Positions 2,559 to 7,518 of a DNA stretch of 64,000 nt are shown here, in pieces. This stretch comes from an uncultured Rhizobiaceae bacterium (GTDB taxonomy: Bacteria > Pseudomonadota > Alphaproteobacteria > Rhizobiales > Rhizobiaceae): NCBI GenBank assembly GCA_951813045.1, contig CATOTF010000002.1, forward strand, positions 2,976,001 to 3,040,000, read 5' to 3'. The translations under genes and the position numbers were made by a program. Position 1 is the stretch's first letter; every line of letters begins with the position of its first letter. Below the pieces are notes generated by a model that made no database searches, was not told the origin of the DNA, and saw only the letters and a program-made list of their open reading frames with translations.

Positions 2559-2786
2559 TCAGTCGTGACCTTCCTGACCCGTCACCTTGTCCCAGATGAC
2601 CTGAGCGACGCCCAGTAGGACGCAGACAAACAGGAAATAAATCATCGGCGCAAATTCTGACGCGCTTGAGCGAAGGAAGCGTGAACCACGCAACAGGCGA
2701 AGGGCCATATCCATCCCATCCTCCCAAACCCAATATAAAGCGGCTGTCAGAACAATAAACAAAACAAGTCCAAACGCGTGACGCAT
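2559..2786 (-). CDS. Small membrane protein, last gene of the redox operon
   Basis: A 75-residue protein with two predicted membrane segments, about residues 5-20 and 47-63, separated by a basic loop (RLLRGSR). Its first base is the last base of the upstream gene's stop, so translation is probably coupled. I do not recognise a named family. Its position as the distal gene of a membrane redox operon suggests an assembly or anchoring role, which is inference only. It ends directly against the convergent hydrolase-OsmC gene. Confidence 0.7.
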   Translation of the reverse strand: MRHAFGLVLFIVLTAALYWVWEDGMDMALRLLRGSRFLRSSASEFAPMIYFLFVCVLLGVAQVIWDKVTGQEGHD

Positions 2787-3346
2787 TATTTCACCTTCAC
2801 CGTATCCACGTCGACCTTGAACACCATCAGGTCGCCACGCTTTTCGATCTCACCTTCAGCCTCCACAAGAATAGCGGTGAGATCATATAGCTTTTTATCC
2901 AGCGGCTTGCCGTCTTTATCGCCAATCAGAAAAAACGAGTTACCCTCAACATCACCTGCCGAGACGAATACCGGTGGAATTCCTCCAACGAGGCAAAGGT
3001 TGGCGCATGCCTTGTGGGAAAGCCCATTGCCGGGGCGCATTGCACCCGCATAACATTTACCGTCGCAAATCTCGCCATTAAGCCGCCATTTTTCAAGGGA
3101 TTTGGTGGCAACCGCAGGAACCGCCTGCCCTTCCTCTTCTTTAATACGCCTCCCGGGAACCTGTATCATATCAAGGTCTCCCCGTTTGAGCAGCGCACCG
3201 GTGAGTTTCACCAATTTACCGTCAAGTTTTAGAGCCGCATCAATCACCCCCCGTTTACCGGGGCCGGACAGCATGATGGAACGACCATCGGGGTATTTTT
3301 CGCTGGGCGACACATGCACAACAGGATATGGCTCCGCCTCCATCAC
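2786..3346 (-). CDS. Cys/His-rich periplasmic-type domain protein; 3' part of a gene frameshifted near 3393
   Basis: The ORF gives 186 residues from a GTG at 3346, but coding character continues upstream in this frame (DPGVGGFQGRLTVVGV) as far as about 3400. Joining it to the small ORF at 3358-3534 by adding one A to the AAA run at 3393-3395 gives one continuous protein: an N-terminal membrane anchor, then this soluble domain. The centre carries a Cys/His cluster, GEICDGKC, then GLSHKACANLC and GGIPP, which looks like a metal or cofactor site. The C-terminal half (residues 110-186) resembles a small beta-barrel. I do not know the function. Neighbours are Rieske and cytochrome-b-like proteins, so an electron-transfer or heme-associated role is plausible. 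The 2786 boundary is firm; the true start is probably 3534. Confidence 0.65.
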   Translation of the reverse strand: MMEAEPYPVVHVSPSEKYPDGRSIMLSGPGKRGVIDAALKLDGKLVKLTGALLKRGDLDMIQVPGRRIKEEEGQAVPAVATKSLEKWRLNGEICDGKCYAGAMRPGNGLSHKACANLCLVGGIPPVFVSAGDVEGNSFFLIGDKDGKPLDKKLYDLTAILVEAEGEIEKRGDLMVFKVDVDTVKVK

Positions 3347-3357
3347 ACCGACGACCG

Positions 3358-3534
3358 TTAGCCGTCCCTGAAATCCACCAACACCCGGATCCTTTGCAGA
3401 GTTACAAACGAATAGGCTGTACCAGCAAATGCTCCAACGAGGAACAGGTAGAAAACAATCAGAAAGCTGCGAAGTCCTTTCGGCAGTTTCTTTGACCAGC
3501 CGATAAAAAAGCCGTCATAGTTTTTACCACTCAT
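3358..3534 (-). CDS. N-terminal membrane anchor of the frameshifted Cys/His-rich protein
   Basis: This 58-residue ORF starts at the ATG overlapping the upstream stop (ATGA at 3531-3534), the usual spacing in this operon. It encodes a basic amphipathic N-terminus and one membrane helix (FLIVFYLFLVGAFAGTAY, about residues 24-41). After residue 48 the sequence turns into unlikely text (IRVLVDFRDG) and stops, while the other frame takes up a sensible domain sequence. It is therefore read as the first exon-like half of the gene ending at 2786, broken by loss of one A at 3393-3395. It could be an independent small membrane protein, but the abrupt loss of coding sense argues against that. Confidence 0.6.
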   Translation of the reverse strand: MSGKNYDGFFIGWSKKLPKGLRSFLIVFYLFLVGAFAGTAYSFVTLQRIRVLVDFRDG

Positions 3535-4034
3535 TGCTTTTCTCCTTCCGCCAGAACCAGTGGTTCAACATAGGTTCCCGCAGCATTTGCGACCGGATCG
3601 ATCATCAACACATCATTTTCAATCGCGATATTATAGGTCGGTACTTTTTCGGTAAACGGGGGCGGTGAGCGCCCGTCTGCCGGCCTGTACTGATATCCAT
3701 GCCAGGGGCAGGTGACACAGCCGTATAACATGCGCCCTTCACCAAGAGGTCCATTCTGGTGTGCGCACAGGTTGGAAAGCGCAGATATCTTGCCGCCATA
3801 GAGAAAAATAGCCGCCCGTTCGCCATCTGGCAGAACAAACACTTTACCGCGCTTGTCCTGCAAATCACCGACGGGACAAACTGGTACCCACGCACCACGC
3901 CCCGTAGCCGTGCTGTCCTGCCTGTTTTCCAACATTCCGGACCACAGGTGTAGGCCAACGACGGTCAGCGCCCCCCCAAAAAAGATGAATACGATAAAGC
4001 CACTGGTCGCATTTTGGAAATATCCGAGCGCCAC
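3531..4034 (-). CDS. Rieske [2Fe-2S] half of a cytochrome-b-like/Rieske protein split by an in-frame TAG
   Basis: The ORF from a GTG at 4034 gives 167 residues: a membrane helix at the start (FIVFIFFGGALTVVGLHLW), then a Rieske domain with ligands in CAHQNG and CPWHGYQY. It is in the same frame as the ORF ending at the TAG at 4053-4055, with only six sense codons (ASLVAH) between that stop and the GTG. Reading through the TAG gives a seamless transmembrane helix. The start at 4034 is therefore an artefact of the stop, and this is the C-terminal half of one protein of about 350 residues. The stop overlaps the next gene by ATGA. Its natural role is presumably passing electrons between a membrane heme b domain and a soluble partner. 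Confidence 0.75.
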   Translation of the reverse strand: MALGYFQNATSGFIVFIFFGGALTVVGLHLWSGMLENRQDSTATGRGAWVPVCPVGDLQDKRGKVFVLPDGERAAIFLYGGKISALSNLCAHQNGPLGEGRMLYGCVTCPWHGYQYRPADGRSPPPFTEKVPTYNIAIENDVLMIDPVANAAGTYVEPLVLAEGEKQ

Positions 4035-4052
4035 ATGGGCGACCAGGGACGC

Positions 4053-4586
4053 CTATGCAAAATAGATACCCATATGGAGCGTTTTCCAAACGCGAGGCGT
4101 TAGAAAACTCAACCAGAAATCATGGCTGGTAACCGCCAGAATAACCAAGATCAGAAGCGTGAACATTCCGAATACTTCAAACGGAAACCCCAGAGCCTGA
4201 CCAAAACTGACATTACTGGTCAAAAGCGCCACATCGGTATCAACAAGCGTGAACACGTAATACCAGTTTATCACATAATTCAGGTGAATCCCGGCAACGA
4301 TGCACGTCAACACCCCGAAGTGGCGCCGGTTATAAAGTAAAGGGGCAAACCGGCGATCAATACGGGCCAGCGGTCCAATGCATAATATGAAGGTCAGCAT
4401 TAAATAAGCGCATGAACCAAAGGCCCTCATGCGCAAGATCGAAACCTCAACAGTCCTCGTCACATCGTGAAATTGCGGCGAGAATTTCAAAAACATCAAA
4501 ATATAGATGACAACAACGCAAATAAGCACCGCATCGTAGATATATTTTACACGGTTCCACAGGACCGGACGATAGGCATCACTCAT
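4053..4586 (-). CDS. Ferric-reductase-like membrane domain, N-terminal half of the TAG-interrupted cytochrome-b/Rieske protein
   Basis: Start chosen at the ATG at 4586, whose first bases overlap the upstream stop (ATGA); a longer start at 4598 is less likely. The 177 residues contain about five membrane helices with candidate heme-ligand histidines in RRHFG, GIHLNY and TLHMG. This matches the ferric-reductase-like transmembrane domain. A further histidine (VAH) lies just past the TAG at 4053-4055, so truncation would remove part of the last helix as well as the Rieske domain. The codon in this position was probably a Tyr codon (TAC or TAT). If the stop is real the protein is likely non-functional; if it is a consensus error the gene is intact as 3531-4586. 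Confidence 0.75.
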   Translation of the reverse strand: MSDAYRPVLWNRVKYIYDAVLICVVVIYILMFLKFSPQFHDVTRTVEVSILRMRAFGSCAYLMLTFILCIGPLARIDRRFAPLLYNRRHFGVLTCIVAGIHLNYVINWYYVFTLVDTDVALLTSNVSFGQALGFPFEVFGMFTLLILVILAVTSHDFWLSFLTPRVWKTLHMGIYFA

Positions 4587-4750
4587 AACGCCACCCACGC
4601 CAGTTCGAAGGAATTATCGGAAAGTTTCATGGGGGGGTCCAATTGGGACGGGGATTGCCGGATATAAAATGCAAGCAAGATGGTAGCGACAATAAACACC
4701 GCCAAAACCTTCCAGATAAGTCCATGGGCTTTACGCAAACTACGTCTCAT
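4583..4750 (-). CDS. 55-residue single-pass membrane protein of the redox operon
   Basis: This short ORF (ATG at 4750, TGA at 4583-4585) overlaps both neighbours by ATGA, so it is almost certainly translated. It has a basic N-terminus (MRRSLRKAHG), one membrane helix (about residues 13-29), and a short tail with DPPMKLSDNSFEL. A cytoplasmic N-terminus and external tail are expected from the positive-inside rule. I do not recognise the family. Tight coupling to the cytochrome-b-like/Rieske gene suggests a small subunit of that complex. Confidence 0.65.
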   Translation of the reverse strand: MRRSLRKAHGLIWKVLAVFIVATILLAFYIRQSPSQLDPPMKLSDNSFELAWVAL

Positions 4751-5052
4751 GAACTTACATCCCCGGTATCCGAAGTATCCGAAGTGTCTTTGCGGGCCGG
4801 GCAGCCGTGCTTGTTAAACTGTTCCAGCGTCCACCAGCGCCAAAGCACCAGAGGCCAGATTACGACAATTCCAGGAATGAGCAGCGGACGGAATGCATAG
4901 GAGCCCTTGGCAGCAGGGTCTACCCGGTCGATACCGAACAGTAAAAACGCTACCGCAGAAACACCCCCGATCACCACCCAGGTCTGAACGATAAGAATGA
5001 TGATTTCTGCCAATGCAGTATCCGGAGCTAACAGTAGCGTGCCCGGGGTCAA
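4747..5052 (-). CDS. Small membrane protein with two to three helices, redox operon
   Basis: A 101-residue ORF. The upstream gene's TGA (5049-5051) overlaps a TTG at 5052 as TTGA; there is no ATG in the first 60 codons. A GGTGGAC lies just upstream of the TTG, so the rare start is credible; a second TTG about 14 codons in is an alternative. Predicted membrane segments are about residues 15-41 and 55-72, followed by an aromatic stretch (LWRWWTLEQF) and a C-terminal tail with repeated DTSDT residues, probably cytoplasmic. Family not recognised. It sits between the FMN enzyme and the cytochrome-b-like gene and may anchor the former to the membrane. Confidence 0.65.
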   Translation of the reverse strand: MTPGTLLLAPDTALAEIIILIVQTWVVIGGVSAVAFLLFGIDRVDPAAKGSYAFRPLLIPGIVVIWPLVLWRWWTLEQFNKHGCPARKDTSDTSDTGDVSS

Positions 5053-6659
5053 TTTAGTCCACCAAAGCGAACACCTGATAAATCAGCCATATCTCTCTTC
5101 CAAGTCGTAAGGTCGTCTTTATTAAATTTTGACACGTGGTCATGGCCACAGGCTCTTGCCATTACCTTCATGAGTTCACCAGATGCTTCAAAGAAATTCT
5201 TCAATTGCTCCGCCGATTTTTCAACCACCAGCCTGCTCACCAAATGTGGCTTTTGGCTGGCGATACCAACCGGGCAGTTATTCGTGTGGCAGGCCCGCAT
5301 CGCAATACATCCAATCGCCTGCATGGCAGAATTGGACAGGGCAATTGCATCTGCCCCCAAGGCCATGGCTTTGATAAAATCTGCAGGCTTTCGTAACCCA
5401 CCGGTAATCACCAGCGTAACCGACTTTTTATCCGATTGATCAAGATGCCGTCGCGCCCTTGCCAACGCGGGTATGGTTGGCACAGAGATATTATCGCGGA
5501 ACAGGATGGGCGCAGCCCCCGTGCCGCCACCACGGCCATCAAGAATGATATAATCAATACCGACTTCGAGCGCTGCGTCGATGTCTTTTTCGATATGTTG
5601 GGCGGAGAGCTTGTACCCGATGGGAATGCCGCCAGTGCGATCCCGAACCTCATCGGCGAAATCCCTGATCTGCGAAACTTCCGTCCAGTCAGGGAAACGG
5701 GCCGGTGATATCGCCGCCTGTCCGGGCTCCAGACCACGCACTTCAGCGATCTTTCCCTTGACTTTTGCACCGGGCAAATGACCACCCGTACCCGTCTTCG
5801 CCCCTTGACCGCCTTTAAAATGAAACGCCTGAACCTTATCCATCAAACCCCAGTCAAAGCCGAAACGGGCAGAGGCCAGTTCATAGAAATAGCGGGAATT
5901 CTCCGCCTGTTCCTCCGGCAACATGCCACCTTCCCCGGAACAAATACCCGTCCCAGCAAGTTCCGCACCCCGCGCCAATGCGATTTTTGCGGGCTCCGAT
6001 AGAGCCCCAAAACTCATATCGGCGACAAACAGAGGAATATCGAGCTTCAAGGGTTTTTGCGCATTGGGCCCGATCAGGACATCCGTGCCCACCGCATCAT
6101 CGTCCAACAGGGGTGGTTTATGCAGTTGAGCTGTCAGCAATTGAATATCATCCCAAAGCGGCAATTCATCGCGGGGAACGCCCATGGACTCCATTTTTCC
6201 GTGGTGCCCGGTCCTTTTCAGCCCGCTTTTGGCATATTGCTGAATAAGGCCATTGTGGGGCTCTTCCTCGGTCCCGTGGCCAGTATCCGCATATATTCCC
6301 AGATAGGCATCCCGGTTAAACGGCTGCGGGTTTTCCAGACCCCATTGGAGAATCTCATCCTCGTCCACAAGAACGTCACCACCCTCAACCCAGGAATTGA
6401 ACTTCGGTAGGACTTCATTGTTGGCATATTCCGAAACACCGGAATCGAGGCGATAATCCCAATAATGCACGCCGCAAATCAGATTTTTACCCCGAACAAA
6501 CCCATCTGACATGAGCGCACCGCGGTGCAGACAGCGCCCGTAAAACACGCAGACTTCATCGTCTATACGCACCAGCACAAGATCAACCTCGCCCACAAGC
6601 GCATGTTGCGGTTTTCGGTCCTTTAATTCGTCAAACTTCCTGATCGAAATTTTCTTCAT
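5049..6659 (-). CDS. Rieske-GltB-like FMN/iron-sulfur oxidoreductase
   Basis: A 536-residue protein, first gene of the operon. Residues 1-100 are a Rieske [2Fe-2S] domain with ligands in CLHRG and CGVHYW. Residues about 160-500 match the FMN-binding, synthase-like domain of glutamate synthase large subunit: LSFGALSEPAKIAL, ICSGEGGM, GGQGAKTG, DGRGGGTGAAP, and a cysteine set CIAMRACHTNNC that in glutamate synthase binds the 3Fe-4S cluster. The glutamine amidotransferase domain and the GXGXG C-terminal domain of GltB are absent, so it is not a normal glutamate synthase. Such stand-alone domains occur widely with unknown substrate. Here the Rieske domain offers an entry for electrons from the membrane partners downstream. 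Substrate and direction are unknown. Confidence 0.85.
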   Translation of the reverse strand: MKKISIRKFDELKDRKPQHALVGEVDLVLVRIDDEVCVFYGRCLHRGALMSDGFVRGKNLICGVHYWDYRLDSGVSEYANNEVLPKFNSWVEGGDVLVDEDEILQWGLENPQPFNRDAYLGIYADTGHGTEEEPHNGLIQQYAKSGLKRTGHHGKMESMGVPRDELPLWDDIQLLTAQLHKPPLLDDDAVGTDVLIGPNAQKPLKLDIPLFVADMSFGALSEPAKIALARGAELAGTGICSGEGGMLPEEQAENSRYFYELASARFGFDWGLMDKVQAFHFKGGQGAKTGTGGHLPGAKVKGKIAEVRGLEPGQAAISPARFPDWTEVSQIRDFADEVRDRTGGIPIGYKLSAQHIEKDIDAALEVGIDYIILDGRGGGTGAAPILFRDNISVPTIPALARARRHLDQSDKKSVTLVITGGLRKPADFIKAMALGADAIALSNSAMQAIGCIAMRACHTNNCPVGIASQKPHLVSRLVVEKSAEQLKNFFEASGELMKVMARACGHDHVSKFNKDDLTTWKRDMADLSGVRFGGLN

Positions 6660-6814
6660 ATAAAGACGAACTCATTGTTGCTTAGTCGAAGCAGGATGAT
6701 CATTGTTACAATGTAAAAGATGCCATAAGAATGTCGACACCTATCGGCATGCACTCACAATTGATTTACAATCCCGAAACCCGCTAAATCCTTCCACCTT
6801 ATTGGCAATTTGAC

Positions 6815-7518
6815 ATGAATGACATTTGGCAAGGGGTTATTCAGGCTTTTTGGCTGCTCGCCGGGTTCGACCGGGAATTGATTGACATTGTTCTTCGGTC
6901 CCTTCGGGTACGCTTACCGCCGTCGTCATCGCATCAATAATCGGCTTGCCATTGGGCGCTTGGCTTGCGCTGAATCGATTCCGGTTTCGGCGCGCAACCA
7001 TTGCCCTCCTCAACGCACTCATGGGTCTCCCACCCGTGGTTGTCGGGTTAATTGTTTACATCCTGTTTTCGCGGTCCGGGCCTTTTGGGGTGTTTGGCCT
7101 GCTGTTTTCGCCAACGGCGATGATCATCGCGCAGGTGATCATCATTGCACCGCTGATCGCCTCCATTGCCCATCAGGCGCTCCGTGACCTGTGGGCGGAA
7201 TATCACGACCTTCTCATTTCTTTGAACACGACAAAACGCCAGCGCATGAAGACCCTTTTGTGGGACGCAAGACGGTCGCTCATCACCGCCTCTTTGGCCG
7301 GTTTTGGGCGCGCCATTGGCGAAGTCGGCGCGATTATGATCGTTGGTGGTAACATCGACCACGTGACCCGCGTGCTGACAACTGCCATAGCCCTTGAAAC
7401 CGGCAAAGGGGATTTTGCAATGGCGCTTGGTCTGGGTTTCATCCTCATAGCGCTGGCGATCATTGTTAATCTGTCGATCCACACCCTCTCGCAAACGGAG
7501 AGGACCGGGAGATGGTAG
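6815..7518 (+). pseudogene. tupB: Tungstate ABC transporter permease TupB, one-base frameshift near 6906
   Basis: The ATG at 6815 opens a sensible N-terminus (MNDIWQGVIQAFWLL, then ELIDIVLRSLR), but that frame stops at 6941. From about 6909 the coding sense continues in another frame (TLTAVVIASIIGLPLGAW) to the stop at 7516-7518. Adding one G to the GGG at 6906-6908 restores one protein of about 234 residues with the expected helices and an inner-membrane-permease loop (EVGAIMIVGGN). A shorter ORF from 6946 would lack the first membrane helix. It overlaps tupC by 7 nt. The permease forms the channel for tungstate uptake. Either the transporter is inactive here or the base was lost in the consensus. 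Confidence 0.8.

Follow-up and report, generated by a model that had tools for sequence, protein, structure and literature searches.

The 64,000-nucleotide stretch of contig CATOTF010000002.1 from an uncultured Rhizobiaceae bacterium (hereafter the window) contains, at positions 2559–6659, eight tightly packed open frames on the minus strand that encode two modules. These are a soluble enzyme, GltR, in which a Rieske domain is joined to the flavin mononucleotide (FMN) and [3Fe-4S] part of glutamate synthase, and a membrane part comprising a cytochrome with a ferric reductase-like domain (FRD) and a Rieske domain of its own (FRD-Rieske) together with an anchored Cys/His protein, P7. The locus is real, conserved, and partly broken, and it is a new variant composed of known domains and one unnamed family, P7. 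The association of GltR with FRD-Rieske is a recurring, optional partnership of two modules and not a fixed system. Our preferred interpretation, to which we assign a probability of roughly 0.4, is that the operon specifies a two-part electron-transfer unit, with GltR as the soluble part and FRD-Rieske and P7 as the membrane part, in which electrons flow outward.

The frames are listed below; all counts of related loci, here and in the following, rest on the best 80 of 481 GltR relatives from genome contigs, which are 79–89% identical.

5049..6659, minus strand: GltR, 536 residues, intact; N-terminal Rieske [2Fe-2S] domain (residues 6–77) and FMN/[3Fe-4S] part (residues 199–505), assigned from Pfam, PDB sequence matches, relatives, and a motif check.
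4747..5052, minus strand: P2, a hydrophobic membrane protein of about 100 residues with a TTG start and a conserved part of the membrane module; the 101-residue frame is matched at >20 bits in 26 of 80 related loci and has no Pfam family above cut-off.
4583..4750, minus strand: P3, 55 residues with a single hydrophobic stretch, poorly conserved.
4053..4586, minus strand: N-terminal piece of FRD-Rieske, an MsrQ/YedZ-like heme b membrane domain (PF01794), ended by an in-frame TAG in transmembrane helix 5 (TM5).
3531..4052, minus strand: C-terminal piece of FRD-Rieske, in the same frame past the stop, with the remainder of TM5, then TM6 and the Rieske domain (PF00355), assigned from the read-through translation and an alignment with 20 unbroken relatives.
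3358..3534, minus strand: N-terminal piece of P7, a short tail and membrane anchor, with an ATGA overlap with FRD-Rieske; part of one open reading frame (ORF) of about 250 residues in 24 loci.
2786..3357, minus strand: soluble piece of P7, two units resembling the oligonucleotide/oligosaccharide-binding (OB) fold with the Cys/His motif in the second, from the alignment and an AlphaFold model of an intact relative.
2559..2786, minus strand: P8, a hydrophobic protein of 75 residues found in the nearest relatives only (3 of 80 related loci, all close relatives).

Neighboring frames overlap by 4 bases at 5049/5052, 4747/4750, 4583/4586, and 3531/3534 and by 1 base at 2786. A preliminary description of this DNA had recognized a run of coupled minus-strand genes, and the eight frames, most of them overlapping, agree with this, but some of them are pieces of fewer, larger genes. 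Its assignment of the first frame as a Rieske domain joined to the FMN and [3Fe-4S] part of glutamate synthase, lacking the amidotransferase domain, is borne out by the matches to PF00355 and PF01645, the cysteine motif, and the absence of an amidotransferase from the Pfam matches. The cytochrome b-like protein fused to a second Rieske domain does exist as a fusion in relatives, and both PF01794 and the Rieske domain are present in the window, but here they are split by the TAG codon; similarly, the reading of an anchored Cys/His domain holds, but the anchor and the soluble part are separated in this genome by a frameshift. In all pairwise comparisons, which covered GltR, P2, the two pieces of FRD-Rieske, the soluble piece of P7, and P8, the proportion of nonsynonymous differences (pN) is lower than that of synonymous differences (pS), with P8 the weakest case, so these frames are not chance ORFs.

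GltR matches the Rieske family PF00355 with an E value of 1.5e-11 and the glutamate synthase FMN region PF01645 with an E value of 4e-88, and it has sequence matches to glutamate synthases in the PDB. No glutamine amidotransferase family is found among its Pfam matches, and the Rieske domain at residues 6–77 occupies the N terminus. The Rieske ligands, C-x-H ... C-x2-H, are present (CLH...CGVH), as is the [3Fe-4S] cysteine motif C-x5-C-x4-C (CIAMRACHTNNC). Four residues that we take to form the 2-oxoglutarate site of glutamate synthases were compared: the Glu of SGEGG, the Lys of GAK, and the Arg of IAxxR (IAEVR) are kept, and the Gln of GGQLPG is replaced by His. The FMN region, the [3Fe-4S] cysteines, and most of the compared active-site residues are common to GltR and to GltB and the ferredoxin-dependent glutamate synthase Fd-GltS, but GltR differs from GltB in having no amidotransferase match, an N-terminal Rieske domain, the Gln to His replacement, and an NCBIfam GltB score of 129.8 against a cut-off of 1047. 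Neither GltR nor FRD-Rieske has a Pfam match to the catalytic non-heme iron domain of Rieske non-heme oxygenases.

GltR-like proteins from one Vibrio and from four genomes of the class to which the window belongs (Alphaproteobacteria, going by the names of relatives) carry tandem CDGSH motifs instead of the Rieske domain; PF09360 was confirmed in both of the proteins tested (L105 and L183). Proteins that join CDGSH motifs to the glutamate synthase FMN part have been published as "type 5 CISD" (PMC3174974). They have the FMN/[3Fe-4S] part (PF01645) in common with GltR, and the four examples from the class are 67–71% identical to it over residues ∼125–535, but their N-terminal part contains two CDGSH (3Cys-1His) motifs where GltR has a Rieske (2Cys-2His) domain. 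A further difference is the link of GltR to FRD-Rieske in many genomes. Because Rieske and CDGSH domains, both of which hold a His-ligated [2Fe-2S] cluster, alternate at one place, the N-terminal domain of the GltR family appears to be an exchangeable [2Fe-2S] electron carrier. Full-length GltR relatives (58–61% identity) are also encoded on three haloarchaeal plasmids. A GltR-type domain that has neither a Rieske nor a CDGSH match occurs on the Pseudoalteromonas plasmid pNC201 (L106:6887–9028), where its fusion partner is an FGE-sulfatase-like domain (PF03781).

The membrane domain of FRD-Rieske is Ferric_reduct (PF01794, E = 9.5e-10), not a bc-type cytochrome b, and is followed by the second Rieske domain (E = 1.9e-13) with its ligands in place (CAH...CPWH). 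In alignment A2, made with the 20 unbroken relatives, residues Arg91, His105, His175, and His188 are invariant. The YedZ/STEAP signature, as given in PMC3591440, has Arg in place of the first heme His and retains three His. FRD-Rieske, with Arg91 and three His, fits this YedZ/MsrQ signature, the canonical positions having been assigned by spacing and by eye. Ferric_reduct, the Arg, the three His, and six predicted helices are thus common to MsrQ/YedZ and FRD-Rieske, and the match to the NCBIfam MsrQ model is weak (34.3 bits, below the cut-off of 130). The two differ in that FRD-Rieske has an added C-terminal Rieske domain and that P7 occupies the position of the periplasmic partner; no gene for an MsrP-like partner was seen among the eight frames, to which this search was confined. 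The extra disulfide cysteines of bc1/b6f Rieske proteins, in what we take to be the bc1 motif, were not seen by eye in FRD-Rieske or GltR. Most Lys and Arg residues lie in the loop between helices 2 and 3 of the FRD-Rieske model, which has a predicted local distance difference test score (pLDDT) of 63, and this concentration of positive charge would place the Rieske domain in the cytosol, to the extent that such a low-confidence model can be relied on. A fold search with the model was dropped because its pLDDT was judged too weak. Bacterial proteins with an FRD and a Rieske extension correspond to the model "M4" of PMC3591440, the legend of which lists Rieske and FMN; these proteins share the FRD and the Rieske carrier with FRD-Rieske, and the accessible part of that source describes no operon, P7, or GltR partner for them. 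In one genome (L176:6257–7384), a protein that combines a Rieske domain with an NADPH-dependent FMN-reductase-like domain is encoded behind FRD-Rieske.

P7 is characterized by the motif GEICDGKC..GAM.PG....H.ACA..C, which is invariant in the alignment of relatives, and none of 22 members has a match above cut-off in Pfam or NCBIfam, so that both its metal and its role would be novel. In the model that AlphaFold gives for an intact relative (pLDDT 81), a single anchor helix accompanies two OB-like units that resemble each other, and the motif lies in the second unit. A structure search with this model against the PDB gave weak OB-fold matches (best E value 0.008, TM-score 0.20), and a profile match to a sporulation protein (E = 5e-4) was marginal and was not used. 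Distant matches to P7 lie one gene away from Sco1-like genes (named by eye) in L021–L023, with the Cys/His motif seen only in L023; the short stretch around a fourth distant match, L020, contains no Sco1-like gene. These Sco1-like neighbors hint at copper. Over 24 loci, the distances of FRD-Rieske and P7 correlate at 0.79, and the correlations of the two with GltR are lower (0.46 and 0.33). This difference fits an arrangement in which FRD-Rieske and P7 form a pair in the membrane and serve a soluble partner that is less tightly associated with them.

Among the 80 related loci, the membrane gene is present in 25, full P7 in 24, P2 in 26, and a gene for a Rieske-tagged thiamine diphosphate (ThDP) enzyme in 32. 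The last number comes from clustering and was used in place of the count of 39 obtained at 150 bits, which may include generic ThDP enzymes. The Rieske-ThDP enzyme contains all three TPP-enzyme domains in addition to its N-terminal Rieske domain, and its best NCBIfam matches are pyruvate oxidase/dehydrogenase (378.3 versus a cut-off of 742); the three domains are shared with pyruvate oxidase and the quinone-linked PoxB, and the extra Rieske domain sets the Rieske-ThDP enzyme apart from them. In this genome, a ThDP-Rieske gene is present elsewhere and is 78% identical to the query. In 20 of the 25 loci that have it, the FRD-Rieske frame shares the strand of GltR and starts no more than ∼0.4 kb downstream; in the other five it lies 2.2–2.5 kb behind GltR with the ThDP gene between (four loci) or on the opposite strand (one locus). 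In the 60 loci with at least 4.5 kb of downstream sequence, the membrane gene occurs in 21, the ThDP gene in 27, both in 13, and neither in 25.

Whole genomes were searched with E value cut-offs of 1e-30 for FRD-Rieske and 1e-180 for GltR and ThDP-Rieske, at which distant forms would escape. In the close relatives (n = 79, the 80 loci minus L088, in batches of 31 and 48 genomes), FRD-Rieske was found in 38 genomes (11 of 31 in the first batch and 27 of 48 in the second); the lower rate in the first batch reflects the fact that only 8 of 32 loci there had a membrane gene nearby. When 289 genomes were sampled evenly from the class, FRD-Rieske was present in 15, Rieske-GltR in 9, and both in 8, and the GltR genomes span seven families. 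The nine include G129, where GltR is cut at a contig end and no membrane gene was found. Four further GltR-like genes in this sample have the tandem CDGSH motifs, and ThDP-Rieske is present in 14 of the 289 genomes, including 8 of the 9 with GltR. The hypergeometric probabilities of co-occurrence with GltR are 5e-11 for FRD-Rieske and 2e-11 for ThDP-Rieske, uncorrected for kinship. In a selected, non-random set of 50 GltR genomes, FRD-Rieske and ThDP-Rieske occur together in 16, one without the other in 7 and 6, and neither is present in 21. The electron path between the membrane and the FMN enzyme suggested in the preliminary description gains support from the close downstream position of FRD-Rieske in 20 of 25 loci and from its presence in 8 of 9 GltR genomes as compared with 15 of 289 overall. 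The proposal of one dedicated system is weakened, since the FMN enzyme occurs without the membrane gene in 41 of the 79 close-relative genomes, narrowly a majority and the outcome named in advance as speaking against it, and an obligate seven-gene system is rejected on the same count. As a conserved neighborhood, the pairing recurs but is optional, as indicated by the 25 of 60 loci with neither partner gene. That description also overlooked both lesions in the membrane genes, as well as the Rieske-ThDP and antiporter genes as at least equally common neighbors.

The in-frame TAG in FRD-Rieske, at 4053–4055, separates the open frames 4053–4598 and 3531–4034. It lies in TM5 between His175 and His188, which are taken to be heme ligands, and the truncated protein should therefore lack one heme ligand and the Rieske domain. 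In relatives, FRD-Rieske is stop-free in 10 of 11 genomes of the first batch (the other has a TGA) and in 27 of 27 of the second, and among the 15 genomes of the class sample this one alone has an internal stop, the other 14 being stop-free; a few genomes appear in more than one of these three counts. Recoding of TAG is unlikely because TAG is an ordinary stop codon in the window, where it terminates 11 of 59 ORFs of at least 110 residues. The P7 anchor (3358–3534) and soluble part (2786–3361) are out of frame as the result of a frameshift, and of the 25 related loci with P7 sequence, 24 have it as a single ORF of about 250 residues and L046 has only a fragment. A third break, a frameshift near 6.9 kb in the divergent ABC permease gene (6791–7518, plus strand), places all three within 4 kb; judged by eye, most of the 59 ORFs listed for the whole 64 kb appear to be full length. 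Because all the pieces that were compared have pN lower than pS, the lesions are either recent or sequence errors. In this genome, the membrane part has probably either lost its function or been mis-sequenced, and GltR may work alone here. In Ruegeria arenilitoris (L046:9644–10640), the interval from GltR to a truncated frame of the Rieske-ThDP type retains only remnants of the membrane module (the start of P2 and the P7 fragment), which looks like a further case of decay.

Starting from the observed domains, motifs, gene order, co-occurrence, and Rieske/CDGSH exchange, the proposed unit would operate as follows. GltR, an amidotransferase-less flavoenzyme of the glutamate synthase family, would use its built-in Rieske domain as an electron plug; the putatively cytosolic Rieske domain of FRD-Rieske, an MsrQ/YedZ-like cytochrome b, would be the matching socket; and P7, a candidate periplasmic OB-domain protein with a Cys/His motif, would be the outer partner. 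Electrons from a cytosolic substrate, for which glutamate or a related 2-amino acid is a guess, would pass from FMN to the [3Fe-4S] cluster, from one Rieske domain to the other, and then by way of heme b to ubiquinone and/or P7, and the Rieske-ThDP (pyruvate oxidase-like) enzyme would be a second soluble donor with a similar plug. Outward flow is favored because this partner enzyme resembles pyruvate oxidases, because FRD proteins generally move electrons outward, because one genome pairs FRD-Rieske with the Rieske-FMN-reductase, and because the charges of the 2-3 loop in the low-confidence model would put the Rieske domain inside.

Several points weigh against this interpretation. This genome has lesions in its membrane genes, the model of the membrane protein is of low confidence (pLDDT 63), and FMN domains of the glutamate synthase type normally receive electrons. 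Contact between GltR and FRD-Rieske, the direction of flow, and the substrate are inferred, as are the location and cofactor of P7. FRD-Rieske was not found in 41 of the 79 close-relative GltR genomes, and 7 of the 15 FRD-Rieske genomes of the class sample have neither GltR nor ThDP-Rieske at the thresholds used, so that neither half needs the other. A full-length Rieske-FMN-reductase is present in one of these seven GltR-less genomes, which is the genome it was taken from; ThDP-Rieske and the full-length Rieske-FMN-reductase are both absent from the other six at these thresholds, and a rule by which FRD-Rieske is always accompanied in the genome by a flavoenzyme with a Rieske tag is therefore unsupported. 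A general form of the proposal, in which one cytochrome with a cytosolic Rieske domain takes electrons from Rieske-tagged enzymes of the glutamate synthase, pyruvate oxidase, and FMN-reductase types and passes them to P7, we consider unlikely. If correct, it would amount to a modular counterpart of the NADPH oxidases and MsrPQ with exchangeable dehydrogenases, with P7 as a new periplasmic double-OB Cys/His family. Mating of the Rieske domains would provide a testable example of a standard [2Fe-2S] connector through which various cytosolic enzymes share one membrane electron outlet, and the proposed unit, if true, would place the glutamate synthase-like proteins with Rieske or CDGSH domains in a physiological context. 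No publication recognized as treating this operon was found in a literature search, the coverage of which largely excluded subscription journals and hence does not establish absence from print.

The same distribution could be produced by two independent modules that share neighborhoods and niches, with GltR belonging to a stress or osmolyte cassette that often includes an antiporter and the Rieske-ThDP enzyme and sometimes an ECF sigma/anti-sigma pair, and with P2, FRD-Rieske, and P7 forming a separate redox or metal-handling module. Each module does occur without the other in the genome counts given above, FRD-Rieske and P7 track one another better than either tracks GltR, and 31 of 74 loci have a cation/proton antiporter gene (PF00999) no more than 400 nucleotides upstream of GltR. 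The three haloarchaeal GltR neighborhoods point in the same direction: a ThDP gene is annotated in two of them, an antiporter and a K+ channel are annotated in one, and the gene tables, which are incomplete, list no FRD-Rieske. However, the close same-strand spacing in 20 of 25 loci, the overlapping frames in the window, and the co-occurrence in 8 of 9 genomes over seven families speak against unconnected modules, and we regard this explanation as somewhat unlikely. The antiporters and the annotated K+ channel of one haloarchaeal record also count in favor of inward flow, in which electrons from a quinol or a periplasmic donor would reach heme b first, then the Rieske pair, and last the FMN enzyme. 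This enzyme would form glutamate from 2-oxoglutarate and ammonia, perhaps as a counter-ion for K+ under salt stress. Retention of the Glu of SGEGG, the Lys of GAK, the Arg of IAEVR (a presumed 2-oxoglutarate site), and the [3Fe-4S] cysteines is consistent with such a synthase, but one active-site Gln of true glutamate synthases is His in GltR, no amidotransferase match is present, and the partner ThDP enzyme is oxidase-like, although its NCBIfam matches are below cut-off. Ubiquinol would, moreover, be a poor reductant for glutamate synthesis, and inward flow appears improbable.

The Rieske or CDGSH domain might, alternatively, be a sensor of redox state, iron, or pH that switches a glutamate synthase-like enzyme, with the antiporter and sigma neighbors marking a stress response. 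In 12 of 80 loci, sigma/anti-sigma-like genes (named by eye) do lie close to GltR, and the antiporter is present as well in 10 of these 12; according to PMC5859297, CDGSH clusters can pass on electrons or be transferred whole. The occurrence of the Rieske domain on three unrelated flavin or ThDP enzymes and on a membrane cytochrome is better explained by a common carrier, and a sensor role seems the least probable of the alternatives.

The divergent ABC transporter at 6.8–9.05 kb, presumably of the tungstate type, is unsupported as a member of the system, an EF-P-like gene preceding GltR in the four nearest relatives (L024–L027). Homarine degradation as the pathway was a lead only, and a search of the homarine literature gave no system with Rieske and glutamate synthase components. 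On the other side of the operon, the plus-strand frame at 1251–2558 of the window encodes an α/β hydrolase fused to an OsmC-like domain and is convergent with the operon.

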